Assembly (NCBI GenBank): GCA_914767715.1
Contig: OU612065.1
Location: 38,314,001 to 38,378,000 of the forward strand
Reading direction: 5' to 3'
DNA length: 64,000 bases
From: Membranipora membranacea
Taxonomy: Eukaryota; Bryozoa; Gymnolaemata; Cheilostomatida; Membraniporidae
Position numbers and translations under genes: made by a program. The notes beneath the pieces were generated by a model. It ran no database searches and was not told the origin of the DNA. It was given only the letters and a program-made list of their open reading frames with translations. The first letter of the stretch is position 1. Each line of letters starts with the position of its first letter. Positions 7,173-59,161 of this stretch are shown in pieces.

Positions 7173-7801
7173 CGATCGATCAATCAGTATATCCATTTAT
7201 TCTATTAACGACATTTACACCGTTGAAATCTGCTGCAGTATGGATTTAGTGGAATTCCGATCTTGTACCGAGATCAGTAAAAGAACGAATGATGGGATTT
7301 ATCCTTATGAATATAATTCTCATTGATATATCACACGACACCACACACAATATTGTGGTGCAGTGTGGTGGGTATGAACCCTGTTTATGCTTCCGTCTAC
7401 TTGGAGGAATGTCATGCAAAGTTTCTTAATCTGCCCATATCGCCATAATATGTTACAATGATTTTGTCCCGCAGCCTTTAGAACTGCTGAGAAACATGGC
7501 TCAAAAATGTGTAGCTTTACTTCCTCACCTCGCTGTTCGTTTAAGAAATCTGTAGTATGAATATCTCAGGAGCTCGTGCGAAAAGAAAGACAGCCATAAA
7601 TAAGCTAAATAACTTGTTTTACCACGTTTCCTAATATCTTGGTCTCAAAGTAAACTTCGTTATACAATACAGTGATTGTGGTGTGCCTTCAAGATAATTC
7701 AAGCTCTCTTTAAAAGCACTGCCAAGGTGGTCTGGTTTCCCTTACTATAGACAATTTTGACAGCTTTGATTATATTTTCAGGTAGCATTTGAATTTGAGC
7801 G

Positions 7802-10800
7802 ATGGAGGAATTCCTGCTCAATGCCATAAAAAGTGGCAACACAACAATTGTACAAAAGATTCTTGACCAGAAGGGTGAAACAGGAGTAGTCGAAGTACTC
7901 ACAAGTTTCACTTCCAATGGCAGAACACCATATGGCGAAGCGATCCTTTACCTTCAGCCGGCAGTAATGGAAATATTTGTTGGGCTTCTTAACAGAGATA
8001 TTCATTTCAACATCTTACAACAAACAGTTTTAAAATTTGGGCGCTCTCTGTCACATGTTATATTCTCAAACGACTTTGATGGAAAAATGAGCTCTATAGT
8101 TCTGGAATCATTGAACTCAGAACAGAAGGTTGCCTTACTCTCTGTACCTGACAATGATAGATGGACACCTCTACATCTTCATGTAACAGCTAGTGTGTTT
8201 AAGACCACTGATCTCCTACAGCTAATGTTCAAACACTTCACATGTGAACAGAGAATGTCTCTACTCATGCTACAAACTATGAATGGAGAGACACCCATTC
8301 ACTTAGCGGCCAGGCACAACTCCAATCACAGCGTTATGCAAATCCTGCTGAGTGGCCTGCATCAGGGGGACAAGTTGAGTCTTCTCTCAATGAAGGATAA
8401 GGAGGGCCGCACCCCAATTCACATTGCTGCTTTGTCCAATGAGAACCCTGCTGTTTTAGAGATATTGTTGTCTGGGCTTAGAAACAGTGAAGAGGTGTTC
8501 TCATTTGTTGGTATGTGTGACAAGCACTACTGGACACCAGTGCATATGGCGGCGAGATACAATGAAAACGCTGAGATTATGCGCTGTATGTTGGGTTTGA
8601 TAAACATGGACAGGCAGATAGCATTGATAGGAATGAGACTCCCTGATGGTAATTCTGCACTGCATAATGCTATCCAGTACAACCACAGCATCATGGTAAC
8701 CCAACACAGTATTAAGTTACTCCTTCGTTCTAGGAATAATGCCAAACGGACACCAATAGAGGTCGACACAAGCTCTCTCTCTTCAGTGGAGGCTGTTTTG
8801 ACCATGTTGAATACAACAGAGAAAATGCTGGTATTATCTGCAGCAAACTCTGATCTGGTAACTCCGGTCCATTGGGCCGCTGCAAACAACCACCATCTCA
8901 TGCAACTTTTGTTGGGCGCATTAAGTGTCGAACAAAGAGTTGAAGTTTTAAAAATGCAAGCGCATGATGGTAAAACCCCAATGGAGATGGCATTGTTAGG
9001 TAGCAAAAAAGGTGATGGCTTACAAACAATCGAAATGATGAATTCTCTTATTGGTGAGAAAATAGCAGACATTTTGTCAGTGAGAGCAAGTCAAACAGGC
9101 AACACCCTACTGCACACGGCTATGGACAGCAATACCTGCCCGCAAATAATCGCGAGCCTATTTGAGAAAATAGATAACTCTGCTAAGTTCTGTTTGCTTG
9201 GCTTAGCCAATAACGAAGGATGGACACCTATCCATGTAGCAGCAAATTGCAAAGTCAAGCGATTTTCAATGCAAGTTGTTTTCGGGATGTTGGCAAGCGA
9301 ACAAATCACAGCCTTACTGAAGACTAAAACAAAAGAAAAGATGACACCTCTACATTTGGCTGCTCAACTAAGGAGTGGAAATGTTTTAACTGAGATCATC
9401 CAAGCTGTTCCTGATCATAGTAAGCGTTCTTTGCTTTGTTTGTCTGATGGTGAAAGGCGCACCCCTCTTCATCTGGCTGCAAAATTCAGCAGTTCCCCAG
9501 AAACAATACAGAAACTGTTTCAAGGAGTGGATATTGGAGAGGTAGATGGCTTACTAAGACAAACAACAAAAGCAAAGCAGACACCGCTACACATCGCTGC
9601 TCAGTTCAATGAAAACCACGAAGTTGTCGCACAGCTGTTGGGCGAAATTCCGAATGACATGTTGATAGGTACACTCAGTCTTACTGATAGCAAAAATCTC
9701 ACAGTGATACACGTAGCAGCACGTTACACGAATCACGAAGTTTTACGAGTGATTTTAGACAGGATTCGCCCAGATCAGAAGCTAGATATTTTCCAGAATG
9801 CAGTGAATGAAGAAGGGTTCACTCCAATACATATGGCTGCACAGTTCAACAAGAATGAACTGGTTACTCGTATGCTAGTTAAAGCTGTTACAGATGATGA
9901 GACTAATATGCTGTTAGGCATTCAAACAAAAGGGGGAGAAACCCCATTGCATCTTTCCTTAAAGTACAACAAAAATGAAAAGGTTTCCGTAGAATTACTA
10001 AGTTCTATTCATGCAGAGAGCAAAGTCTTCAGTCTAAAAAACGACGAGGGTTTAACGGCAATGCATGTTGCAGCAGCTTACAGTGAGAAACCAGATGCTC
10101 TGAGGCTGTTCATGAGGTGTTTGGGAAAGCAAAGTCAAGCCCTGCAAATAGATGACAAAGGATGGCTACCATTGCATTTTGCTGCCAGACACAATGGAAA
10201 TGCATGTGTTATGGAAATCCTGTTCTCAGACCGATTGCTCCATCAAAAAGCAGATGACCAATGGACCCCGATTCAGCTTGCAGCCAGATACAATCCATCA
10301 CCAGAAGTCATATGCTGCTTGCTTTCACAAAGGCACAACGAAGATCTGCTGAAAACATTGGGTGAAGCATCAGAAGATGATTCCTTGCCATCATCCCACT
10401 ACGTTTTGCCCCCTGTGCACCTTGCCGCATCATTTAACAGTGGCATAGTGATGAGAGCACTGTTGGAAAGTTTAGATATGGACCAGAGACTAGATCTCCT
10501 ATATAAAAGGGACAAGGACAATCGTTCCCCTTTGCATTTAACAGCAGAGTTTAACGAAGATGCAAACGTTGTAGCAGCTATGCTGAAAGGGTTCACAAAT
10601 GGTAAGGCACAAGCGTTATTACGCATGGAAAACCTGGAAGGATTGGCTCCTCTGCAATTGGCAGCAAAACGCAACAGGAACCCTGAAGTGGTCCAAGTCA
10701 TGCTAGCACGCTTTGATGTGGATGAGAGACAGTGTCTTCTAAGTAGGGGAGGACAGGGCTTGGGCACACCGATTCATTTAGCTGTGATGTACAACACAAA

Positions 10801-11621
10801 CACAGCAGTATTGGAAGCACTGATGGCATCAATGGGTGAAACTGCTAAACTTGAGTTCTTAGGGTTAAAGAATGCTGATGGCAGGACTCCTTTAGACCTA
10901 GCAATCCTTCACAATAACAACGAAGATCACATTAATGCAATTATGGCTACCATTGCAAGCAAGACATCCATGGTCGAAATTATTAACAATACCAACAGCG
11001 ATAGCATGTCATCCGTTCATCTAGCTGCATCAAGGAGCAATGCTAGAGTCCTCAATGGGATCTTTTCTTATTTGAGCATCGATGAGAGATTAGGCCTTCT
11101 TATCACGCAAACAGAGAGAGGCTGGACACCGCAGCATTTTGCTGCTCAATGTGAGAATGCAAATGTTATGGCGGCAATTCTAGCGGGACTGAACAGTGAT
11201 CAACAGATGACTGCTCTAAGTAAAACAACCACAAACGGCTGGACGCCATTTCATTTTGCAGCACAGAACAATAGCAATGATGTATGGAATTTACTGTTGA
11301 AAACTCTACCATTAGAAGACATCATAAGAATGCTCTGTGTGAAAACAACTGAAAACCTGACACCCGTGATCCTTGCATTCTCAAACGGCCATTGTGCTGC
11401 CATGAAAGTTCTGAAGCCTGGGATACTTCTGCCATTGATCATCACTGCCAAAGACAGTGTCAACATTGACCAGAACAACCAAATAATTCATTTGTTGGAA
11501 TCTCTTTTATCCACCGATTGTCATTTTGCCAGCCTGAAGGATTACCTAGCTGATAATGAGGTTTTAGGAAGCTGTACAAGATTTCTAACCCCTGTGCTGG
11601 ACAGCCTCTCTTCTATCATAG
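7802..11621 (+). other. Single-exon array of about 30 extended (40-residue) ankyrin repeats
   Basis: A single 3.8-kb exon carries nearly all the ankyrin units. Each starts with a TP(L/I)HLAA-like motif about every 40 residues instead of the canonical 33. The extra length lies between helix 2 and the next hairpin, typically a segment such as LLSGLxxxxKLSLLSMKDKEGR. Several units have decayed motifs (RTPIEVDT, RTPLDLAI, NSALHNAI), which suggests old, diverged repeats. One or two more units (NNLLHIAA, CTPYHSC) lie in exon 2 before the protease domain. Confidence 0.9.
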
Positions 11622-13845
11622 GTATGTAGCATCATTTCATCAATACAGTACTGCTGTAATCTAAGCAAGGAGTTGCTCCTTGATCTAACTCCACTACAGC
11701 CGTCTTATCTTGTAGTTCTGTTGTTTTCGAGTGGTGTCAAATGCAATGATAAATCAGCTATGTTCATGCTTATCATTTGTTACTTACGGTTAAGCAAAAC
11801 CGCCAATTTTTCCCGCATAATATAACCGCCACACAAAAGAAAACAAGTATGATGTGCAGCTACGGTGGCAGTTATGGTCAGACCAAACATGCCATTTGAT
11901 TCAGAAATTGACACAGAAAACATAGAGGTCGCGGTTTTGGTCAGACCAAAACAGCCATAATTACAGGGACTGGGGATATTATGTGGAGAAATTGGCAGGT
12001 TGGGTCGACCGTAGTTACCTTGCTCACTGTTTTCTGCGTTTTTAAGGAAAAAACCTTAAAAACAGTGACTGGCATTACAAAGGTTATCAGTCGAAGCATC
12101 TGAAACAACTTAATGTTAGGAATTAGGATATGTTATTATTAAGTATTTGTATAATTTCTATTCAGAGAGAAAGCATCATGTGACACTCTGGAAGGACACA
12201 TCTGGAAATAATCTACTGCACATTGCTGCTGCAGCCGACCACAAAGGATTTATAACACGAGTTATACAGACCCAGGATATGACTGAAATAAGTGATGCTT
12301 TGAGGAGTAGAAACTCCTATGGTTGTACGCCCTACCATAGCTGTAAAAGTGGACAACTACCGAATATCCTAGCTTGGACTGAGCAACAAAGGAAATCTTA
12401 CCCTCTACTGCAACCACCTCGTGTTCTCATCTTCTATTCAGACACAGATCGCCCTGGATGTGATGCAGAGTTGAGAAGTTTTGAGGACGCTCTCCCATAT
12501 ATTGGAGTGACGGAGCCAAGTGTCATACTCAATCCGACCAAGCAAGAAATCTTCCGCATGATCCGTGAGAACCAGGAGGGTGAGGTCTCAGCCTTAGTTG
12601 TGGTCGTCATGAGCCACGGAGATAGCGGACGAGTGAATGTAGCAGATGGACAGCTAGCATTGAAAGAAATTATGATGCAGATGAATTCTTCCAAGCTAAA
12701 AGGAATTCCAAAGGTAACTTGCAACTTCTTTGGCTTGTATGACGTGTTATAGAAACTCATGAACTTTGAGCGTCAACAACATTTGCATAAAGTTTGAAAA
12801 TTAAGAATGCTATTGCACACAGTAAATTTCAATATTTACTTCGAGAAGCCAACCATATATTTGCACCTGAGCCATACAATCTCCTGTATGTTGTAAAAGT
12901 TGAATGCAAAAAAAATACACGACAGTGAAAGTAAAAAAGATAAGATTTTCCAATATTGAAACCTTTTATGGCATGCGTGAGCCATTCAATTTAACCGTCC
13001 GTATTTCAGATTCTAATACTGCAAGCGTGCCAAACAACACAGATGATGCCCAACAGAAGGCATGATCAGATGGAAGGACACGGTACAGTGCCTACCATGT
13101 CTGCAGGTAAGTCTTCAGATGATGTGTAGCATGAGCATGAGATAGGAGCATAAAGCAAATTTAATGACTGGTCATAAATGGCCACCAAAAGATACTTTCC
13201 TCAAACTTTTTTGTTAATTAATCAATCATCGTTTGTTGCAGGGATAGAGTTAGTATTTACGGATATATAAATACCTATATATAATAACTCTATGGCTCTA
13301 CCGACAAGGTATACATCATGGACGTATGCACTTCATCTCTAATTCACACATTTTATATATCAAAGCATACTGAAAAATTGTGAAATAAACTAACATAACT
13401 GGTTTTGTTAACAGATGCTTGGGACCAGGAAGAACAGGAGATCGATAGCAACTTTGGTCTCGATGCCATGCCAGGATCCAATACGGGGTCCTGCAAAGGG
13501 CAAACAAGAGTTCAACCAAACAGATCCTCTCCTGGTAGTTTTGATGTATCGGGCCCAGATATGTTGTTGCTCGCAGCCACAATTAACAATCAACTAGCTA
13601 GTAGGAATGTTATGATTCCGAAATTGGCTCACAACATCAGGGAGTCATCAACAGATGCTGATCTGCATGACATCTTTCTACAGACAACAGACGAAGTGAG
13701 GAGAGAGGTACCAGCCCAGGTACCAGAATACCGCAGCACAGCAAGACTCAAGATCTGCTTGAAACAAGTTTATAGCCCCAAAACCAAATACAAGTCTGAT
13801 GCCAAGCTGGGTCTATGGGACCGTATTCTGAAAAAAATGAAGTGA
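7802..13845 (+). CDS. Ankyrin-repeat/caspase-domain fusion protein
   Basis: Four exons, 7802-11621, 12166-12713, 13010-13106 and 13415-13845, give 4896 nt and about 1631 aa. All junctions are GT-AG and in phase. Residues 1 to about 1345 are an ankyrin array of about 30 units (TPLHLAA-type) with a 40-43 residue period. Residues about 1359-1631 are a caspase (peptidase C14) domain. It has a first strand RVLIFYSD, a catalytic His in SHG (H1424), a catalytic Cys in LQACQT (C1463), and a p10-like part with SRN in the place of the usual SWRN. Caspases cleave after Asp and form p20/p10 subunits. Ankyrin repeats bind proteins, so the array may be a sensing or recruitment platform. No signal peptide is seen, so a cytosolic location is likely. 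The ATG at 7802 follows a probable acceptor at 7780-7781. Activity is inferred, not shown, because the pentapeptide is QACQT rather than QACRG. Confidence 0.88.
11779..12020. mobile_element. MITE-like inverted-repeat element in intron 1 of the ankyrin-caspase gene
   Basis: The left end GTTACTTACGGTTAAGC and a nearby CCGCCAATTTTTCCCGCATAA reappear inverted at the right end (ATTATGTGGAGAAATTGGC, then ACCGTAGTTACC). A GGTCAGACCAAA motif occurs twice inside. There is no coding capacity. The element is about 240 bp, and both the internal symmetry and the ends suggest a non-autonomous DNA transposon. Confidence 0.55.
12025..12067. repeat. AT-rich hairpin in intron 1 of the ankyrin-caspase gene
   Basis: TTTTTAAGG, six A residues, then CCTTAAAAA form a stem-loop. 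A CACTGTTTT/AACAGTG extension is interrupted on one side. It lies directly beside the MITE-like element and may belong to it. Confidence 0.5.
12417..13845 (+). other. Caspase (C14) catalytic domain, spread over three exons
   Basis: The domain order is the strand PRVLIFYSD, then DRPGCDAEL (equivalent to the usual RxGTxxDxxxL, possible S1 arginine R1369), then VVVVMSHGDSG (His codon 12615-12617), GIPKILILQACQT (Cys codon 13028-13030), a linker of about 70 residues with several Asp, and GPDMLLLAATINNQLASRN followed by a p10-like helical region. Compared with typical effector caspases, the QACRG glycine and arginine are replaced by Thr and Gln, the Trp of SWRN is missing, and the loop after it is shortened. 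These changes leave the catalytic dyad but may alter specificity. Confidence 0.85.
13244..13294. repeat. Short hairpin element, CATAGAGTTA type
   Basis: ATAGAGTTAGTAT at the left is the near-perfect inverse (12 of 13) of ATAATAACTCTAT at the right, with an AT-rich loop. It lies in the intron before the last exon of the ankyrin-caspase gene. Relatives are at 21732-21766 and probably at 62798-62860 and 62922-62948. Confidence 0.65.
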
Positions 13846-15190: not shown

Positions 15191-18100
15191 TCAGATAATT
15201 CTTTGTAAAACATACAAAAATATCAAACCATACACATTTGGCAGCATCACTGAAGCCGAGTTGTAGTTGGGGCAGTAAGGACATTGATAAGATCCACATA
15301 CCAGGCAGACTGTTAACTTCATAAGCTCAAACTTCTCATAGTAGCCGGAAAAGTAGTTACCTGTAATGAGGCGATAATGGTTGTAGGCTTTTTTTAATAA
15401 AAATTTCAGCTCAGTTGGTTCCAGCTAGCCAATGTGTCGTCTCTGATTGGTTGGGTTAGAAATAGAGACAACTTGCTCCGCCCAATCAATCAGATTCAAA
15501 GCAAACACACCAGCTAGTTCCAGCATAAACCACTACCTTGCAAGAATTTTTTCACAAATTATTTGGAATAACCTCTAGAACATGATACTGATAGCCTTGC
15601 AAAATGGTGGACAGATCAGATGTAATTTAGCATGGAGATTTCAAATTTGACATCCATCATGCTTTAAACACATTCCTTGTCTATCAATAAGATAAGTTCT
15701 GTTGATTACTCCTGATGTTCATAACTGATCAGTAAGCTAGGAACAATGATATGATGAGTTTAATATTCCTTTAAAACACAGAAGTTGTTATATAAATTAC
15801 AAGATTTTTTCTTTACCCTGTCACCCAGTTCTTTTGAGAAGAGCTGGAGAGTATCTGTGTTTTCTCATATTTTATTGAAACTAAAATTAAAACAACCTGA
15901 TAGCATCCCATACACTTACCTGGCTCATAGTATTCATAAACCTTGATTGGGGTCAATTCAGCCATGTTTGCAACTGGAAACCATCTATATGCTGTGTATT
16001 TAACGCAGTTATCGTACGTGTGGTCCAACTGTAACAAAGAGCAAAATAATAACTTAATGTTCTGGTAAATTGCTGGATCTGTAGGGCTTCTATTTTATGG
16101 GCACCAGTTTTATGAGATCTCTCCCTCCTCATGTGACGTCCCTTTGTTATTGCTAGGATTGCACACCAAAGGATGGCTTGACAGGTGTGAAACGATTGTG
16201 GTATTTAAGAGTTGTGTTCTTGTTCCATTGGAGGGAACAACTCAGAGAGTTAAGTTGCATGCTATATCAGGCTATATCATTACACACATCATACGGACTC
16301 TGGGGTATGTTTTAGCACACCACTGAATGCTCTTAATTTTGCTAAACGCATTCCGCATTCCGCATAGATGGTTGGGGGAAATAACTCACATAGTCAAAGT
16401 AGAAAATTGCAATTCCGTTTGCGACATCTTGCTCGCCTGCTCGTAGTGAGGTAGTAGCTTTGACAGCCTTGACATATGCTTGTATTGCCCACACAGCTAG
16501 TCTATATCCTGTAGGTATACCGATCTCAAGAACAGCCATCCCACTTCTCTCTGTCGGACCATTCCACCTGTAAACGGAACAAAACAGTAGAGAGCTGCTA
16601 CTGTGTGTTCATCACTCAATACGTTTTCGATAGATTAGCTTTAAAATCTCAGCATACCTTTGATGTATTTTGCTGCAGAAAACAAAACAGGATATGGAAA
16701 TCCGCCTACAAAAATATCCATCAAGGGCCTTTTTTCAGATTGATTAATGATTATTGCCAGAAAACAATTTGTTTCTTGCATCCGGTGATCTTCCTAGTTT
16801 GCTTGGCTGACTGATCACCATATACAGCAGCACACCTCAGCACACCTCAATACACCGCATCACATCTCACCATACCATACAACACAAATACCATTATGGC
16901 ATGGTCACTGCAGAAACATGATCAGGGTGAATTTACCGGTAAACATTCATCCAATATGACATTACCTTGGACATATATGGTAATGTATTAAAGAATGGTT
17001 GAATCCTCCCGTTGTAATGTTCACGTTGTAAACGCCTAAATCAAAGATGTCAGGTATGGGCGGAGGAGACAACATTTCCTGTGCGTCAAAGTTCTGAGTT
17101 GTCTCCATCTGGACTAGAGCTATACCATGTCCTTTGGCTGAAGCCCCCAATGTACCCCAATGTGATGGAGTCTGAAATCATACAGTTACAGATGAGACTA
17201 GTAAGAAATGGTGGCGTGCAGTGAGATTATCTACTGCTGCGTGACCTGCTCAGCGATAGTTGCTTGTTCCTGCGGTATGGTGATTTCACATAGTTGTCAT
17301 AGCTAAGAAAAAAACTGCCCAGTCACAAAAGTTGCTTTGGTTTAACTTTTTTTACGGCACACAGCTAGTTACAAAGAATCTCATTATCTAGGCAATATCT
17401 ATGATGCGTTTTCTGACCAAAAAAAATTGACGTTCTCTAATTACCTTGAATCTCTGAAGTTCAAACCAGTTTGACTGATCGATGTGTATAGTGTGTACCC
17501 AATCCTCCACCTGATCTGAGGTGAAGGTGAAGGTCATGTCGTAGCTCACTCTGTCCTGATTCTTATTGGCTAACGCTTTTAGAGCTTGCACAGCTACTAA
17601 AGTGTCCTACGACAATCAGAGAGAATTTCTAACTCAGATACGGATAATCTCTTCTCACTTCATATCTCAGGGATCAAATAATTGCTAGAGTTTAGTTTAG
17701 CTTGTTTGTAAGCTGGGGCTTACTTGAAAGTACATCATTTTGTTAGCTAAGGTGAGAGTTTAATGAGACTGAGAAAATGTCAGTATTGATGTTTAAATCT
17801 TTTGACAGCAAGGACATTAGATTGAAACAAGTCAAATAAATGATTGATTTTAAAATTTACCTGCGATGAAGAGAATCCGCCCACCCACATGTGCTGCTCC
17901 TGTAGGAATCTCTGTATCGGATCGACTTGTTTGTTGAGACTCGCTGCAGAGCCTCCGTTCTCCATGATAGACAGCATTGCGTAGGATGTCGCTGACACAG
18001 TATACGCACAGGCAGCGTATGTACTCTTCGGCAGCAGATTTATGATTGTGTCTAGTGTAGAGGTAGACTGAACTATTGCGTCCACCTTCTCATCAGACCA

Positions 18101-21100
18101 GTAATACATGCCATTCACTGCCAAACAGAGTAAAAGGGTGTTTCCCAGTTGAGAATAAAGAAAAGAACCAGCAGTTTTATAGCGTTCAGATTAAACCTGA
18201 GAAGGATTCATGGATCTATGGGTACCTGAAACATGGAAATATAGACTTAGCTAGACTAGCTCACTCTACACTTGCAGAAACACTCATCAAACAAAAAGAT
18301 GCTATAGATGGAACTCAGGTATGTGATACATTGATTGATTGATCATAATGAGCAGGTGATACCTATTATCTATCCATACCTTGCCTTCTTATAGATAGTA
18401 ACTTAATAAACGCTCTCTGGTTGATTCCTGTATTACTGGTCAGCATCAATGCGTAGGTTACTATGGACAGCTCAAATGGGTCACTAGTCTGATTATAGTG
18501 CCTCTCCAGGTAAGATGTTGCTTTTTGCCTTGCTAGTATAACGTTGTTACTCTGGAACATCATAATCATAGATATGACACTGTTGCAGCTTAGCCAAATA
18601 CACTGTTTCTCCTTTTTTCAATTTTTGATTTAGCAAAAGTGGTCAGCATTAAAAAAGTCTTGTTGCTCATCAAAAGGCGGCGATCAATTCTCGTTGAACA
18701 ATATTGGCTAAAGGTCATTGAGAACAAAGAAAAATCAAGATTCTGTACCTGTTCAGAGCACATAGCACAAGACAGTGAGAGGATTGAAGACCCAAAGTGT
18801 ATAAGCCGGTATTAATATAAATATATAGGAGATGAGTTGTTATAAAGAGTATATTACAGAGTGTATATTACAGAGTGTATATCTGACTCACCAATGCAGT
18901 AGCAGTAGAAGCTTTAGACAAGGAGATAACACACAGGGCGGTCAGAGCCAGATTAGCAGGTTCTGTTATGCCGTTCACCGTAATATCGACTTTACTCTAA
19001 TAAAGCAGGATAGAGTTTGAATAAGACTATTTTGTGGGTGATTAAATCTCAACAGGGCCAAAGTCGTCTGCCCTTATTTGTTCGATAATCGGCTACAACA
19101 GCCGATGTAGGTCAAAACCTTATGGAAATAAAACTGGACACATTTTAGTTAAAAAATATGCAAGTCTGATTGTGGTGGTAATAGAAAGCTTGATCTCAAT
19201 GGAATTCAAATGAAAGAAAGCAGCAGATAATTTATGTTGTCATTCATAAAAATGTATATTGAGCTAACCACTATAATATTCTTCAGAAAATAATTTAGTT
19301 AGCTTGTTTGTATTTACTCCTTATTGAACTGGAGTAGGAGGTGGCTCAGTGGTTAGAGCGGCGGTCCTTCTGCATGCAAATGTTGAAGGTCGTGGGTTCG
19401 AATCCCACTGCAGCCCACTGACTACTGGGAGTTGTTGGACCCACAAACTGAGAGCCAATAGGTGCAGACGTTGCAGCCTCGCCCTTAAGGCACACACAAT
19501 TTCGCCGCCACTATGTGGTGAGTGACTAACCCTTGCGATTTTAACCATTTTTAACCATTAAACACATGACGTGTTTATACCTCAAACAGGCGAGTGAGAC
19601 TTCCATGTGGCTCTATAAACTTCCCGGTCGTTTGATCTTGTTGAGTTATGAGCCAGTTTGCCGTAACATTGATAGTCTCTTGTGGCATAGTGAACACATT
19701 TCTCAGATCTTGTAAAATCAAACCATCTCCCATCACTCTCAAACCTATGGCTGTCACCCTAAGGAAAAAGATTGTGAGTTGTTAATTATCCACGAGGCAG
19801 TACAAGCACAAATACAAATAAAAGCTTTAAAAATAAGAATTTGCGATAAATATCATACCACGGAGTTCGGGATAAAAAAAAACAAGTTTCACTTGTGCAA
19901 AATTGATATTCGGAGTTATGGCTCTATAAGTTGAGAGAAGATAACAGCTGATATAAAATTTTCTGAGGTTAACATTAATTTTGACCTTAATGAAAAACAT
20001 TCACGCTGATGTAGGGAGGTGGTTGATATTGAAACATTACTTCCACCACAGTGTAAGCCGGTTAGATCAGACTTTATAATTCAGAACTCCTGTTAATTCA
20101 TACAAGGAAAATTGGTTCCTTCAGCCACATCTCAATGCATTCTAATGTCACTTAATTCAGACTCTGCTTAATATAATTTTTTGTGGTCCCCAGAGGTTTG
20201 AATTAAGTGAACTGCACTGTAATATGCACTGTATTAAAATGCAAGTATTATTATGAATATAATTTAATCACCATGTGCTGGGGCCATCACTCCATCTAAA
20301 CTCATGGAACGACCCATCCGGCCGTCTATGTGCATACATCTCCTGCATCGCTAAAAATATGAGAAAAAAAGTTAGATAATTTCTTAACAATTTGGTGCAG
20401 CAGCCCACTTTGGGCATGTGCACCAATCAATTCAGGTTGGTAATCTTTGCACAGTAGCGACTGAACTGATTAAAAAGTGTTTGCTGAGTTCTCTTTCTGA
20501 AGAGTCATTCCACCTGCACTTGAAAAAGTTAGATCTGATGTCCAAATGTAAATAGGTCAATTGGGCCAGTTTGTGGCATTGTGGCTACGGCGCAGAGTGA
20601 CTCCTATCACAGAATCGATCTGCAAGCAGTGTGGCAACAGCCTCAAAGAAGCATGTGCTTTATCCCTGGGCAGCTGCAGTTGAGTTGTTGCTGATCTTAG
20701 CGTGCACAGTTATATAACAGTTCAACTCCCTCACAATCTTCTCCTACACACTGAATTGCTAAATCATTTGAAGTGATATAAACTGGATTTATAGTAAACT
20801 TATTTTAATGTAAGTTATCAGGTAGAACATGATAATATAAATCTCACCTATATTAATTCTGCCCGCGACAGTCTTGATTTTTTCCTGCGAGATTTTTCCC
20901 AGACTTCTCAGCATGTCCAGTGTGTAAACATTTACACCAAAATTAAACACTGCCTCGGCCCCGCTGTAGTATGGCTGGCCAATCAGAGTCATTGTCTTCA
21001 GGTCATATTTAGCATATGGGAAAAAGGAGATACCCACTACATCGCCTACAAATGTTCATAATAGTCAAATATTATATGAGCGATCCTTCCTATCATAATA

Positions 21101-35965: not shown

Positions 35966-38900
35966 CTAGGAAGTTCTAAACATTCGAAGCATAACAAAAT
36001 TAAGAATGATAGCTAATGTTAGGACACCGATGTTTGGTGCTATCGTTGGACTTGTGTTGTAATATGGACAGTAAGGACATTGATAAGATCCACATACTAA
36101 ACAAACTGTTAACTTCATTAGTTCAAATTTTGCATACCAGCTGAATTGAGCGAGAGCTACAAAACAAAAAAACAAGGAATGTCATAGCATACAGTTGTAA
36201 TATTAAAGACCTCACATATTTTTATTACATATTTGTACATCTTGTAAAAATTGTTATTTGATGTTCTCAATGACAAGGAGTTCGAATTCAAAGAGCGGTC
36301 ATGACTCAGTACCAGTAGTGCTAAATACGCTTTATATTAGGAATGGCAGCACAACTTCCACTTGCTATTTCCGTTGTCGTTATCTTTAACATTACCAAAG
36401 CCATGATAGCAAATTGAGAGGGTGTTCATCGACCAAAGTGAGAGCAAGAGAATCTTGGTCAAAGATTAAGTCAGAAAAAGTTGTATCCAACTATCCAGGT
36501 TTTATATAATTGCAAGAGAGCGAAATTCAACCCGGCCCTTTTACTCACCTGGTTCATAGTATTCATATATTTTAATTCTCGTAAATTCATCTACATTAGC
36601 TACTGGATAATATCGAAATGAGGTTATCTCCGCACAATTCAATCTTGTTTTATTTATCTGTAACAAAAAAAATTTAATATAGCAAGTGCTGTGATATTTA
36701 TAGTTCAAGTGTAGTTAAATTCAGTGATAATTCTCTATTATAATCCTCAGGCTCATTCTTGGCAATGTACAGAACTAGAACCCAAATTAACACTTCAGGT
36801 GCCCCTAATCACAGAGAGCCGAGCAACCTCACCAACCCCAAGTAACAACCATAACTACTAAACCACAAAATCCCTTAACTCCTGACTGCATAACTTTGAA
36901 GGTTGCTACCAGGAGAGGCTATTTAATACGAACAGCATGTATGTAAATGTATGTGTGGTTATTTCGTAAATTCTGGAAAGAAAAAACTCACAAAGTCAAA
37001 GTAGAAGATCTCCAATCCGTTGGAATGCTGAGCAGCCCTTAAGGACGTTGTATGCATTTTTCTCTTCACTTCTTTAATAGATCCGCCATTAGAAGCTTTA
37101 TAACCGCTGGGTAGATTTATTTCTAATACAGCCATTCCACTTCGCTCTGTTGTACCATTCCACCTATGGAAGAAGAGGGCAAACATGATGGGAGTAGATA
37201 ACTTCAAATCTCTACCAATTTCAAACTTCTTTTTGTGAGTAGAAGTTGTTGTTGATGTCATATAATTTTTGAAGTGAGCCGACATTTGATAACAGAATGG
37301 AACCCTATGGCCACCATTTAGTACTTATAATATTCTGTTTACTGCGTATGTTTCGGTATTAGGGGAGAAGATCGCGAGATCCTGGGTCCGAACCTGACCG
37401 GGATCACTGAGTAAACTACCCGGTTCGGCTCTTGCATGCCATTCAACCACGCTGTCTAAGAAAGGTAAACCAACTATGGCAAGCCACTTTGCAATAACCT
37501 TCAAATCAATGAAGTTGAGATTATCTCTCAAAAAAATTGTAATCCAATTAACGCTCTTACCTGGGGCAGATTTTGATATGAATAAGTGAGTGATTGAAGC
37601 CACTAGTTGTGATGGATGTTTGGATATTTCCTAAATCAAATATTCCTTTGATTGGGGACTGTTTGAGTTGGGAGGCCTCCTCGTCTCTGTTAGCAGTAGT
37701 TTTCATCTGAACTAAGGCTATTCCTGTTCCTTTTGCTTTTGTCTGTATAGTACCCCAATGAGAAGGACACTGGAAGTAAAATATGAGAAACAAATAAGAT
37801 AATGTGGGCGAAAGGTGGAGTATTTAGAGATACAGCATATATACAACTGATTAATTTTCTCAGATTGATTTATCAAATGATGTATCAGCTATTTATAATA
37901 CTCAGATGTTAGACAAAGTGAAGCTGTTTATGATAAACTGCGATTTGCCTCGTTAACACAGGCAGCAGTTCTTTGACATGTATATTTTGGTGGTTGTATT
38001 TGTCATAGTGTGACTCTATCTCTACCTTGACAGACTGCAGGTCGAACCAGTTATTCTGATTAAGATGGATGACATGATTCCAGTTTTCATCCTGATCAGA
38101 TTTAAAGGTGAAGGTCATATCATACGATCCTCTGTCCTGGTTTTTCGATGCTAACATTCCTAACGCTCGTACTGCCACCAGGGTATCCTTTGATTAAAAA
38201 AACATCAATATAATTCATTACACTTCTCATTGCTCTGTGAAAGAGTGATTTTCTATAATGGCTAGTAATTCCAAGGGAAAAATATGCACCAGTTGTGTTG
38301 AAGTGTCAAAAAGGTAAAAATAATGTATTTCTATGGTCACACAGAAATGCAAGTGATAACTTTGTCATATTCAATTAGAGGGTAGATGCATTTGCAGAGC
38401 CTTTATTCGAGGGCTCAATAATAGGATATAATCAAATGGTGCATAACAGATGGGGAAACACAGTAACTTATCTACCAGGTTCAACTTGAAATAAACATGA
38501 GCTTCTAGGTTCTTACCTGAGTGGAGTAAAATACACCTATACCAATTCTTTGCTCCTGTAGAAATCTCTGTATAGATTCCAGATCAGCCACTGGTTCACT
38601 GTTAGCCATATACGCCATCAGAGCGTAGGATGAGGCTGTCACTGCGTAGGCTCCGACACTAGATCCTCCTCTGTGTCTGATTATCAGATTGGTATCCTGT
38701 GATGGTGTTACAATTTCTATTGGTTTTATCGCCTTACTAGACCAATAAGTCATGTCATTCGATGCAACTAAAAAAATATGATGACAACATTGTTGCAAAA
38801 GAAATACTGCTGCATTCATTAATTCAGAAATCAAAAGAGTGTTATTGTTGTTTGTTTGACAGGCGATGTACGTCACATAATTCAGATTTGAGTGGTTCAA

Positions 38901-41900
38901 AATACTCTGTAATGTAGATGAGGAATATTGGTTCCTTCAACCAAATTTCAATGCATTCACCAGTCACTCAGTTCTGTCTTGGTATAATTAGAACAAAATT
39001 CGATGGATCATATTAAGTGGAATAGACTTGGCTTCAAAATATTACAATTAAAGGGAGGCATTGTGTTGTTGACAGGTCAGAATTACAACCGGAAAATACT
39101 ACACCTCTCAGATCAAAGGGTTTCATAAGTTTCATTGACTATTGGTGTTCGATTGGTGATTTTCACTGGTAATGCCACTGTACACTTTTCATATAAGGTA
39201 AGTTGTTTTATATTGATAACCATACTTGTTCTGCGCATGTCCCTAAGTTGACGTATAGCTTTCTGTGTGACGAAGGATTTTCCAGTAACAAACAGAGCAT
39301 AGGTTACAATAGCTTTTGCAAATGGATCGTCCACAATCTCATGCTGGTGATAAGCTAGAAAATCTGCTCCCAGCTTTACGCCATTTAGCACTGCAATGCT
39401 CTGCAAGAAAAGAGGAACAATATATACCTAAACCATACATACTAAACATACCAAAATTTTAGGCTATATCAAGAGTTGTCTCTTCATGTAAACAAAAGAG
39501 ACGATTCCTGATCATGGCGAATCTTTTGGTTTAATACTACTTTATTGGAATGCAATGGGTAAATTTTCACTTTTCTTCACAAATTAGCTTGAGATTGACT
39601 GGCATTATAATGTTATTATTACAGGATCAAACCTTACCATGTTATAATTAGAGGATCAATCCTTACCATGCTAGCGACAGATGAAGCTTTATGAAGTGAC
39701 ATCACACATAGAGCTGTCAGAGCAAAGTTAGCTTGTTTAATCTTCCCATCGACTTCAGTCTCTTGGTCACTCTAAAAAAGAAAAATCGCTGAGAATTGAG
39801 GAAAGTTTGACAGATTGTGATGATAGTAGGGTGTGCAATTGAAGCGTGATACTTGCCTTATCTAAACAAGGATCATGGATACTTTGAAGAAAGACTAAAT
39901 GTTGTTCGTTCATTGTATATTTATTTTTACCAAACAAGACAGTGAATTGCTCACCCTAAGATTTAACTTAAGCAGATAAATTTTGACTGCATCACTGGTG
40001 ACTTCCAATATGCAATGCCTGCCCCCAAACATTTGTTGTCATGATATACATTTATACTGTGACTCACATGAAAATGCCTGAATTGTACGTTGCCAGCTTC
40101 TCTGAAAATGCCTGTAGAATCATCCTGTTGTGTTATGAGCCATTCTGCTGTCCGATTGATAACCCCACTTGGGAATACAAACTTATCTCTCAAATCAGTC
40201 GTCTGTAAACCATCTACCATCACTTCCACAGCGTTCGCTGATAACCTGCACAATAAGACATGACAAACAGGATGAGATATTGTGTGTAAGTAAAAATGTC
40301 CACATGTTTTTACTGTAGAAGAGGCTAGAACTTGAAAAGATCCAAAGAAGTCAATGTAAGTAAATTGCCGACTGCCCTTACTATGTCTTTGCTGCAAAAC
40401 TGAGAGGAATTATATACTAAAGGACCGGGCAAAAAAATAATAATGGACTATTGAAAATCAAAATTTTAAAACATTGTTGAGTAACACTAACCAAGTACTC
40501 GACCTCGTATTCCATCTGAATTGTTTAAATGAACCATCTTCCTGAAGAAAGGCCAAGAATTCCTGAATATCTAAAGATGCAATGGAATAGAAAAATTATT
40601 AATTGTAATAACATGTAGCAGAATGCAACAATAGTCTGAACCCTTTTCTCTTAGAACAGGGATAAAACTTACTGCATCTGATGAAGTTGACATTGGTAAG
40701 AAAGCAATAGATAAAAAAGAGGAACAACTCACAAGTGTCATTAGGCACATCGATAGTTTAAATTTGAATTGAATTTAATTAAATTGGCATTGATTTTTTT
40801 CCCTTTATCTTATTTTGGTTTCTATTTTATGCACATCAGGAAAAACATTTCGGATGATGGTGGATGTATATGTATAGAGCATGTCTTACCAGAGTTCAGT
40901 GTGTTGCAGACAGCAGCCGTTTTGGAAGGAGGAAAATACTGCCCTCCGAGACGTCTGTATATATTAAGCAGATTTAAGTTGATGGCAAAATTGAACATAG
41001 CTTCTCCTCCGCTGTATGCTGGTTTTCCAAACATGCTCTTAGTGTTCATATCTGTGGACGTGAATGGTACTCCGATTATACCACCTGCAAAGTATACATG
41101 AAATAAGACATCATCTAGCATCGTATTATATTTAAATAGCTTTGAATAAGATTTTCCAACACAGTCAGTTCATACTTCTCAAATCGGCATTTATTTATTT
41201 GTTTCAAGTTTCATGGAAAGGTTACAGATAATATAGTAGTTCAAAGCAACTCGTTACCTCTGTTATGTATTGCACGCTGACTTTTTAAGCATATCCAAAT
41301 AAATTTCCCACTAGTTTTTTTCAGACTTTATTCATGTTAAAGTTAGAAACAATAAATTATGAAGAGCAGAAATTGTCTTACCAGTGACATAAATGGTAGA
41401 ACTGGCGGAGCCTTTCACATATGTTCTGTAATCCGACTCATATTTAGTATTCACTTCATTAATGGGGATATACAGATCGGGTAGGACTTCGGCGTTACGT
41501 GTTCTCAGATCTACCTGATAACTATGAGTCCATCCATCCTTTACTCCACTGGACTGTAAATAAGAGCAAATGAAACTCTAACAAGAAGGTAAATCACAGG
41601 AAACCAAGGAGCATCATGTATACAGATAAATCTAATGTTTGCCAACAAGTGTAGGGGTGATTTTTGGCAGTTTTAATGGTAATACATAAGCCAAGTAATT
41701 TTAATGTACAGAAATTACTAAATAAAACACTGGACTCCTGGCCGCAGAGTCTCTTATATGCCTCCAATTAATCCTAGCTATACTGTTCATAAGCCAACAA
41801 ACAATTCAAGGATGATCCTTTAGAAAGCATGCTGAGCCTAACCTGCAAGGATAAATATCTATCAGGATGAAAACTATTTAAAACCTTAATTAGCCTTATT

Positions 41901-57312: not shown

Positions 57313-59161
57313 ATGATCAAATCTGCCAAGATGTTTTTGAGTGCTATTTTGACATCGAGCAAATTAACATCTAAAACACTGTCAACACATACAACTAAAA
57401 CTCTCTCGGCCATTTGGACCAAAATATCCTTTGGTAACTATAAGCCTGTCATTATTGGGTGCATATATCATCCTCCAAGTGCCGACGAAGCCACGACAGT
57501 AGAATATATCACAGCCACCTTGCTCAAGCTGTCAAAGTCCCATCCCAATGCAAAGTTCTTCATGGCCGCCGATTTCAACCGGCTACACACTGATGACATC
57601 GTGCAACAGTTTGGATTTAGAAACCTGTTAATTTCAATACACGCAAAGAGGCATGCTTGATTTATTACTAACGGATATAGCAGAATATAAGATGTCTACC
57701 AAGCTAGCACCAATCTCCAATAACGACCACTGCTGTATACTGCTAGATGGCCAGCCAACAAAATCTACCCATTATACTAAATTGATGAAACGTAAGATCA
57801 CACCTGCTCGTAAAAATCATGTACTCGCTGACCTTGCTGCTGCAAACTGGGATGCCGTATTTCAATGCCAGGATGTGGATAGTAAGACAGAGGTACTTCA
57901 CAGCACTATCAACTCAATACTTGATAGACACTGCCCACTGATGCCTATTAAAGTCCGGGAAGACAAGCCACCATGGATGACGCAGACCATTATCAAGCTA
58001 GTCCAAGCACGAGAAAAAGCGCACAAAAAAGGATGCAAATCTTGGAAAGTCCTTCGTGCTTTGGTCCAACGTAAAATAAGATCAAGTAAACGGAAATTTG
58101 TTAATGAGTCTTTTAACCAAATTACCGATACAAAAACATGGTGGAACACTGTCAAACGGCTAACGAACCAGACTAAAAAAAACTCCGCACCTGAGCATGT
58201 GGTGATAGGCGATTCTAAATTAAGCAATCATGATTTCTGCAACAACATTAATGACTATCATATCAATCTAGGTGGGACAGCCCTACCACCGAAAGTTGAT
58301 ATTACGCCTCATCCTGAACAGAAGCTGAAACCAATTAGCATCGGAGAAGTGAAAAATCTGCTGAAACAGCTAAATGTTTCCAAATCAACTAGCAGAGAAG
58401 ATTTTCCCACATGGATATCGAAGATGGGAGCTGAAGATATGTGCATTCCACTGCATGATGTGCTAAATTGTATGCTTTCCACATGTGCCTACCCAGACAA
58501 GTGGAAACGAGCACAAGTCACACCTGTGCCAAAACACAAATCTCCAGCTGAGTATAAGGATTATAGACCTATATCACTCCTGTTCCACCTTGGCAAGATA
58601 GCTGAGCAGGTGATCATCAACAAGATGCAGACTAAAGTAGACGAGATAGTGAACCCTAGCCAGTATGCATACCAGCCTGCTGTTAGCACCACAGATGCTC
58701 TTCTCCAGATGGTAGATGACTGGACGCAGACCTTAGATAAGACCACTTCGGTAAAATATGTGCAAAATGCTTGTTTAGATTTTTCAAAGGCCTTTGATAG
58801 GCTCCAGCATTCCATCCTGATAGAAAAAATGGAAAATCATGGTTTCAATAGAAATATTATTTTGTTAGTAGAAGATTTTTTTTATGAATCAGTTGCTGTT
58901 GGCACCCTTCAAGGCACTAAATTAGGACCGATTCTTTGGCTAATTTACTGTAATGATTTAAACGCTGATGGCTTTTCTAAAGTTCAGTACCCTGATGATA
59001 CTACTATTTATACACAAGTTAAACACCCAAATCATAGTGTAGCTAATGGCATTCAGCAAGCTTCAGATTGGTCTGTAGCTAACAACATGCAACTAAATCA
59101 TGACAAAACTGTTATTTTAAATGTGGCTTTTTCTGAGCGTAATATCAAAATACCATCCTGA
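57313..59161 (+). pseudogene. Degraded jockey/CR1-like non-LTR retrotransposon (endonuclease + reverse transcriptase)
   Basis: The first frame (57313-57660) holds endonuclease motifs, VIIGCIYHPPSA and FFMAADFNRL. It stops where a +1 shift enters the second frame (57653-59161), which resumes with LDLLLTD and SNNDHCCILL. Reverse-transcriptase motifs follow: YRPISLL, DFSKAFDRLQ (about residue 376 of this frame), QGTKLGPILWLIYCNDL and YPDDTTIY (about residue 444). The usual YADD is YPDD. The segment before QGTKLGP is shorter than in intact elements, and the C-terminal domain is missing after residue 502. The frameshift, internal deletion and truncation make it a dead copy. A (CATA)n tract follows at 59305-59325. 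Confidence 0.88.

Follow-up and report, generated by a model that had tools for sequence, protein, structure and literature searches.

A long ankyrin array fused to a caspase domain in the bryozoan Membranipora membranacea: gene structure, related loci and a putative sensor-protease role

Recruitment of initiator caspases in animals normally depends on CARD or DED adaptors. RNase L, a ribonuclease with nine ankyrin repeats, acts as a dimer. In fungi, gasdermin-controlling proteases of the S8 or CHAT caspase-like type are fused to WD40, TPR or ANK repeats and, in the available part of the source, are proposed to be sensor-proteases (PMC12881547). Fungal ankyrin-repeat NLRs, likewise from a partial source, combine an ankyrin sensor and an effector in one protein (PMC4986451). 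Here we describe a gene on chromosome 1 of Membranipora membranacea in which a long ankyrin array is fused directly to a caspase domain. The gene lies in a 64-kb stretch of DNA (C1:38314001-38378000), referred to below as the window.

The nearest described parallel is provided by the fungal repeat-proteases, in which, as in the window protein, a single chain carries the protease with superstructure-forming repeats attached directly to it. They differ, as far as the same partial description goes, in using CHAT or subtilisin domains and in lying often beside a gasdermin gene, whereas, among solved structures, the best relatives of the window domain are animal caspases. A single weak gasdermin match turned up in the genome (C2:5647683, 28.2 bits with a cut-off of 25), on a chromosome other than that of the window, and nothing links it to the ankyrin-caspase. 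The window gene shares with the fungal NLRs the union of ankyrin sensor and effector, but its scanned exons gave no Pfam match to NACHT or NB-ARC up to E = 1. RNase L is a structural match of the window array, and both proteins carry an ankyrin array on an effector; it differs in having a ribonuclease effector and nine repeats versus about 30. Among animals, the bivalve and amphioxus caspase expansions are likewise invertebrate expansions with novel domain combinations, according to the parts of the two papers available (PMC10967218, PMC3196919). The domain list in a mussel figure legend comprises CASc, CARD, DED, DD, DSRM, FN3 and PB1, and the main texts contain "ank" (mussel) and "ankyrin" (amphioxus) 0 times. 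No animal ankyrin-caspase was found in the open-access papers searched, and predicted proteins of the same architecture may exist in protein databases; within those papers, the finding agrees with the earlier sequence-only reading, which had considered the architecture unfamiliar from model animals.

The spliced ankyrin-caspase has 1631 aa and is encoded by four exons (Table 1). Sequence-only reading had proposed an in-phase read-through from about 30 ankyrin units into the caspase domain; the 1631-aa frame, with 28 registered units in exon 1, bears this out, and the three proposed junctions (11621/12166, 12713/13010 and 13106/13415) were recovered exactly, all with GT-AG borders and with the frame kept in phases 1, 0 and 1. 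The acceptor-like end at 7781 and the in-frame TGA after it suggest an intron in the 5' untranslated region with no coding sequence upstream. The first AATAAA 3' of the stop codon is at 15396, and the 3' end of the gene is thus unplaced. A pseudogene reading of this copy was ruled out, since it has four open exons, intact splice sites and retained catalytic residues. PolyA RNA-seq data (ERR6464929) are listed for M. membranacea tzMemMemb1.1 in the available part of PMC10290214.

Table 1. Coordinates of the coding exons and of the main catalytic and pocket residues of the ankyrin-caspase in the window.
Feature	Position	Strand	Remarks
5' end of first coding exon	7782..7801	+	acceptor-like TTATATTTTCAG ends at 7781; in-frame TGA 7796-7798, then ATG 7802
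Exon 1	7802..11621	+	1273 codons plus one base, open from ATG; ends in phase 1 at G|GTATGT
Exon 2	12166..12713	+	ankyrin-like segment, linker LAWTEQQ..Y.L..PP, p20 to G-I-P-K; donor GTAACT, phase 0
Exon 3	13010..13106	+	ILILQACQTT..., with Gln1461 and catalytic Cys1463; donor GTAAGT, phase 1
Exon 4	13415..13845	+	interdomain linker with Asp1499 and Asp1505, then p10; stop 13843-13845
Arg1369 (TDRPG), pocket Arg	12450..12452	+	alignment with solved caspases
Catalytic His1424 in S-H-G	12615..12617	+	alignment with solved caspases
Catalytic Cys1463 in QAC	13028-13030	+	exon 3 codon
Arg1552 in S-R-N-V-M-I-P, second pocket Arg	13603..13605	+	aligned with SYRN of caspase-8

The ankyrin units of exon 1 are regularly spaced, with 19 of the 27 spacings between 39 and 42 aa and a median of 40 aa. 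Compared with Pfam, the exon matched Ank_2 in 17 stretches (E = 1.5e-80), with tandem units above the cut-off, and a profile built from 22 units of the array itself (own-array profile) scored 26 stretches, two of them weakly. Residues 1-121 look like degenerate ankyrin, with an Ank_2 score of 18.7 bits that is below the cut-off. The start of exon 2 would add one or two further units by motif only, with sub-threshold scores (Ank_2 E = 0.023, and E = 0.16 in the spliced tail; own-array profile E = 0.055). No death-fold match (CARD or DED) was obtained with Pfam in the 1273-aa N-terminal part. Assignment of the array to an NCBIfam effector family was rejected, the score being 127.3 bits with a cut-off of 1400 and the match reflecting the ankyrin repeats only. 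Outside itself, the best match of the array reached 27% identity over 319 aa. A cluster of ankyrin-array frames of 372-2345 aa, weakly similar to the window array, was also observed at C7:0-2.8 Mb; among the matches listed, the family caspase searches touch C7 only at 26.94 Mb and not at this cluster.

The spliced tail was identified as Peptidase_C14 in Pfam with 63.9 bits (cut-off 21.4, E = 2.3e-17), and a sequence search of solved structures returned caspase-3 chains (E = 4.9e-05). With family profiles, the p20 (15 rows) led to an ancestral caspase-3/6/7 (E = 7.5e-13) and the p10 (13 rows) to caspase-8 (E = 1.1e-04), which is the closest to the window p10 among solved structures. The caspase identity given by the sequence-only reading was thereby upheld in profile searches, and the SHG histidine and QAC cysteine that it pointed out are present as His1424 and Cys1463. 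The Asp-binding pocket is complete (Arg1369, Gln1461 and Arg1552), Arg1369 being what we take to be the counterpart of Arg64 in caspase-3. The window gene encodes, by these alignments, a predicted protein of caspase fold with the catalytic dyad and the Asp-pocket residues. Metazoan initiator caspases (caspase-8, -9 and -2; Peptidase_C14, MEROPS C14A) are alike in p20-p10 order, His/Cys dyad and Arg-Gln-Arg pocket. They differ in carrying CARD or DED where the window protein has the ankyrin array, and in the pentapeptide, which is QACxG in them and QACQT in the window protein. Caspase-8 p10 has SYRNPAEGTWYI where the window p10 reads SRNVMIP. Two candidate cleavage sites were located in the p20-p10 linker, Asp1499 (QEID/S) and Asp1505 (FGLD/A), chosen from the cleavage preferences of caspases. 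A structure model of exon 2 had a predicted local distance difference test score (pLDDT) of 44.3, which is unusable, and was set aside.

The genome (339,339,785 bases in 18 contigs) was searched for relatives. The 358-aa tail of the window protein gave at least 77 exon matches (114 of 299 candidates scored), while a related exon containing the ankyrin-like segment, linker and p20 (from locus L017) gave 40 matches with all 104 candidates scored. These 40 were assigned manually to 35 loci, which lie on C1, C2, C3, C4, C5, C7, C8, C9, C10 and C11. The match included the ankyrin-like segment before the linker at 29 of the 35 loci, and the caspase part alone at four (C10:2.61, C10:2.63, C5:3.44 and C7:26.94 Mb). 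Since the pre-linker segment is ankyrin-like by motif only, ankyrin frames were sought upstream on the same strand, and they were present at 27 of the 35 loci. At least one ankyrin family was above the Pfam cut-off at 22 loci, namely the window, L039-L043 and L047-L051 (ten loci), L057 and ten more. Four others (L044, L015, L031 and L034) were recognized by the own-array profile only, and L019 is counted from a match of the window array to C3:8548603-8549571, located 1.5 kb upstream of the p20 exon of that locus. The frames scored with Pfam had been preselected by the own-array profile (10/12 in one batch, and likewise in the ten-locus batch). The link is less sure for L040, where about 7 kb separate the ankyrin frame from the p20. 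As a control, seven canonical-type loci (L001-L006 and L008, with 1.5 kb flanks) gave no own-array match better than E = 0.3. The linker is common to the family and the intron phases are mostly alike where read; window exon 2 is 29-45% identical to that of 14 paralogues, and the longest ankyrin frame among 13 paralogue stretches is 664 aa, versus 1273 aa in the window gene. By sequence comparison, the window gene is one of 35 related loci, and most of this family is predicted to be ankyrin-fused.

Several further observations were made on these loci. The closest paralogues of the window gene among the matches listed are L048 and L049 (44% and 42%), which form a young inverted pair at C1:16.07 and 16.12 Mb, on opposite strands and about 42 kb apart. 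A family copy at C8:14028968-14029481, with stops inside two pieces 64% and 59% identical to L017, is perhaps decayed. The caspase expansion in the genome is very large, with at least 145 Peptidase_C14 exon matches (140 of 515 candidates scored), many in tandem-like blocks (C1:33.6-37.1 Mb, C3:22.8-23.6 Mb, C5:4.1-7.6 Mb, C9:0.2-2.5 Mb and C10:22-24 Mb).

Paralogues also supply evidence on the fusion itself. Ankyrin and caspase domains occur together in single frames of L042 (6608-7858, 417 aa; Ank_2 E = 3e-13, Peptidase_C14 E = 9.7e-06) and L057 (1-1401, 467 aa; Ank_2 E = 1.9e-38, Peptidase_C14 E = 1.3e-05), and since these frames are unbroken, the fusion is no splicing artefact. A donor-like phase-1 GT was seen by eye close to where the array frame ends in five of the six paralogues read (L039, L041, L048, L049 and L050, not L051). 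Where both parts were found by script, a GT donor terminates the p20 frame and the next exon opens with the QxC strand. In a crude motif search, the donor after the QxC exon was in phase 1 in the window, L032, L048 and L051, and no such phase-1 donor was found in L030, L033 and L037.

Conservation was evaluated in a p20 alignment of 25 rows from the fetched family loci. The catalytic His and the pocket Arg are each retained in 23 rows; the two exceptions, L031 and L038, have lost both. These two are neighbours of L035 (C2:5.066-5.087 Mb), another ankyrin-caspase that reads like them, and the three are candidate pseudo-caspases. Of the 25 members, 22 showed QACQ, which was not found in L031, L034 or L038, and QACQG occurs only in L043/L044; outside the alignment, L040 has QACP, and L029 and L047 have QCCQ. 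The Arg-Asn of p10 is invariant in the 13 aligned rows, which are part of the tail-search matches. Of the canonical-type loci, 4/7 (L003-L006) show QAC followed by SG, AG or RG. The ratio of nonsynonymous to synonymous rates (dN/dS) was 0.27 for L016/L026 and 0.18 for L031/L038. Between the window gene and its relatives, the proportions of nonsynonymous (pN) and synonymous (pS) differences were 0.353 and 0.784 with L011, and 0.428 and 0.832 with L013, with synonymous sites saturated.

A tree of 32 p20 rows (26 labelled ankyrin, three ankyrin-less relatives and three canonical caspases from this genome) split the ankyrin-caspases and the three ankyrin-less relatives from the canonical caspases at 100/99. 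The inner order is mostly unsettled, four changes are needed for the ankyrin label and the rows without ankyrin form long branches; therefore, a single fusion event behind the family is only possible. Single-sequence pattern scans for a prokaryotic or viral origin (viral contigs with the window tail, genome contigs with the L017 exon) found no relative, a weak result since such scans reach close relatives only.

From the architecture, we infer, with a rough probability of 0.58, a cytosolic all-in-one sensor-protease, whose array, with no CARD or DED involved, would bring the caspase domains into proximity. The array, a solenoid with about 30 ankyrin units, each some 40 residues long, and tied by a short conserved linker to the caspase domain, would bind a protein or another ligand. 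Two caspase domains would then meet, whether through this binding, through clustering or through an inhibition being relieved, self-cleavage might follow at either candidate site of the p20-p10 linker, and the activated caspase would then cut Asp-containing targets, leading to cell death or an immune response. Ordinary initiator caspases use CARD/DED adaptors for this step, and the array would take their place. The receptor-protease idea put forward by the sequence-only reading remains the best-supported mechanism that we can infer.

Several observations weigh against this proposal. Long ankyrin arrays are often scaffolds and not sensors. The junction segment in window exon 2 is ankyrin-like by motif, with scores below the cut-off, and no Pfam ankyrin at E ≤ 0.1 was found in exon 2 of L014, L016 and L017. 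No upstream ankyrin was seen at two of the 35 loci, L027 (C4:1.23 Mb, 1.5 kb flank) and L046 (C2:6.80 Mb), and the count of 27 leaves out six unscanned loci (C8:14.03, C4:17.65, C10:2.61, C10:2.63, C5:3.44 and C7:26.94 Mb); L045, matched in p10 at C5:0.64 Mb and not one of the 35, gave no ankyrin either. In the caspase part, QACQT stands in place of the QACxG pentapeptide, and the piece of p10 that follows SRN, with the reading VMIP, is shorter than its caspase-8 counterpart. Constraint is weaker in the youngest pairs, with dN/dS of 0.52 (L014/L015) and 0.91 (L011/L012), both from few changes.

The array could instead be an exosite or scaffold that holds the caspase on a fixed partner, such as cytoskeleton, a membrane protein or a substrate, with activation by another caspase or a local signal. 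Among the best structural matches of an 8-unit model of the array are scaffold ankyrins (ankyrin-1 and AnkB, for instance), and the plentiful caspases of the genome could act upstream. Nevertheless, this appears rather unlikely: the array diverges (27% at best), window exon 2 is 29-45% identical to its paralogues and ankyrin frame lengths vary, and a variable array on a steadier module would fit diversifying recognition better than a fixed dock.

It is more improbable still that the protein is a pseudo-caspase, catalytically weak or dead, regulating other caspases as c-FLIP does. The deviating QACQT and the altered p10 segment would fit it, and dead members exist in the family, His and pocket Arg being clearly lost in two of the 25 aligned. 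The window copy, however, retains His1424, Cys1463, Gln1461 and both pocket Arg, and the presence of QACQ in 22 of 25 members makes it a family feature and not decay. The three-residue pocket and the QACxG motif are given as the defining features of caspases in the mussel work, in which QACxG is broken in 40 of 51 caspase domains (PMC10967218, partial text). A mis-spliced prediction, or two separate genes, the ankyrin one closing with exon 1 and the caspase one opening with exon 2, is very hard to sustain, since L042 and L057 span both domains above the cut-off without a break and a same-phase donor-like GT closes the array frame in five of six paralogues, even though a TAG at 11627-11629, just past the exon 1 donor, would give an ankyrin-only protein from an unspliced transcript and exon 2 ankyrin similarity is sub-threshold.

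Elsewhere in the window, similarity to TED_complement (thioester domain) was found in two exon-like frames on the reverse strand, 17783-18190 and 38508-38936, the second just below the cut-off; they likely belong to complement/macroglobulin-type genes located downstream of the caspase gene. A reverse transcriptase frame at 57632-59158 (+; RVT_1 E = 5.4e-22) presumably represents an element of the non-long-terminal-repeat type. In the 64-kb window, neither Rfam (gathering threshold) nor a tRNA scan gave a match.

A recognition array built into the protease would make a one-chain receptor-executioner as described in fungi, of which no animal example was met in the open-access papers searched. 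The family looks like a set of built-in sensor-proteases and not an oddity. Tentatively, and somewhat short of an even chance, the roughly 30 ankyrin-caspases may form an immune or self-recognition receptor class evolved in bryozoans, in which the variable array would recognize the ligand and the steadier linker-caspase would execute, bypassing death-fold adaptors and NLRs. The members that have lost His and pocket Arg, together with the rest that keep them, offer a ready-made set for comparing activity. M. membranacea is colonial and its phylum has received little study; in such an animal, cell death and self-recognition are of importance.

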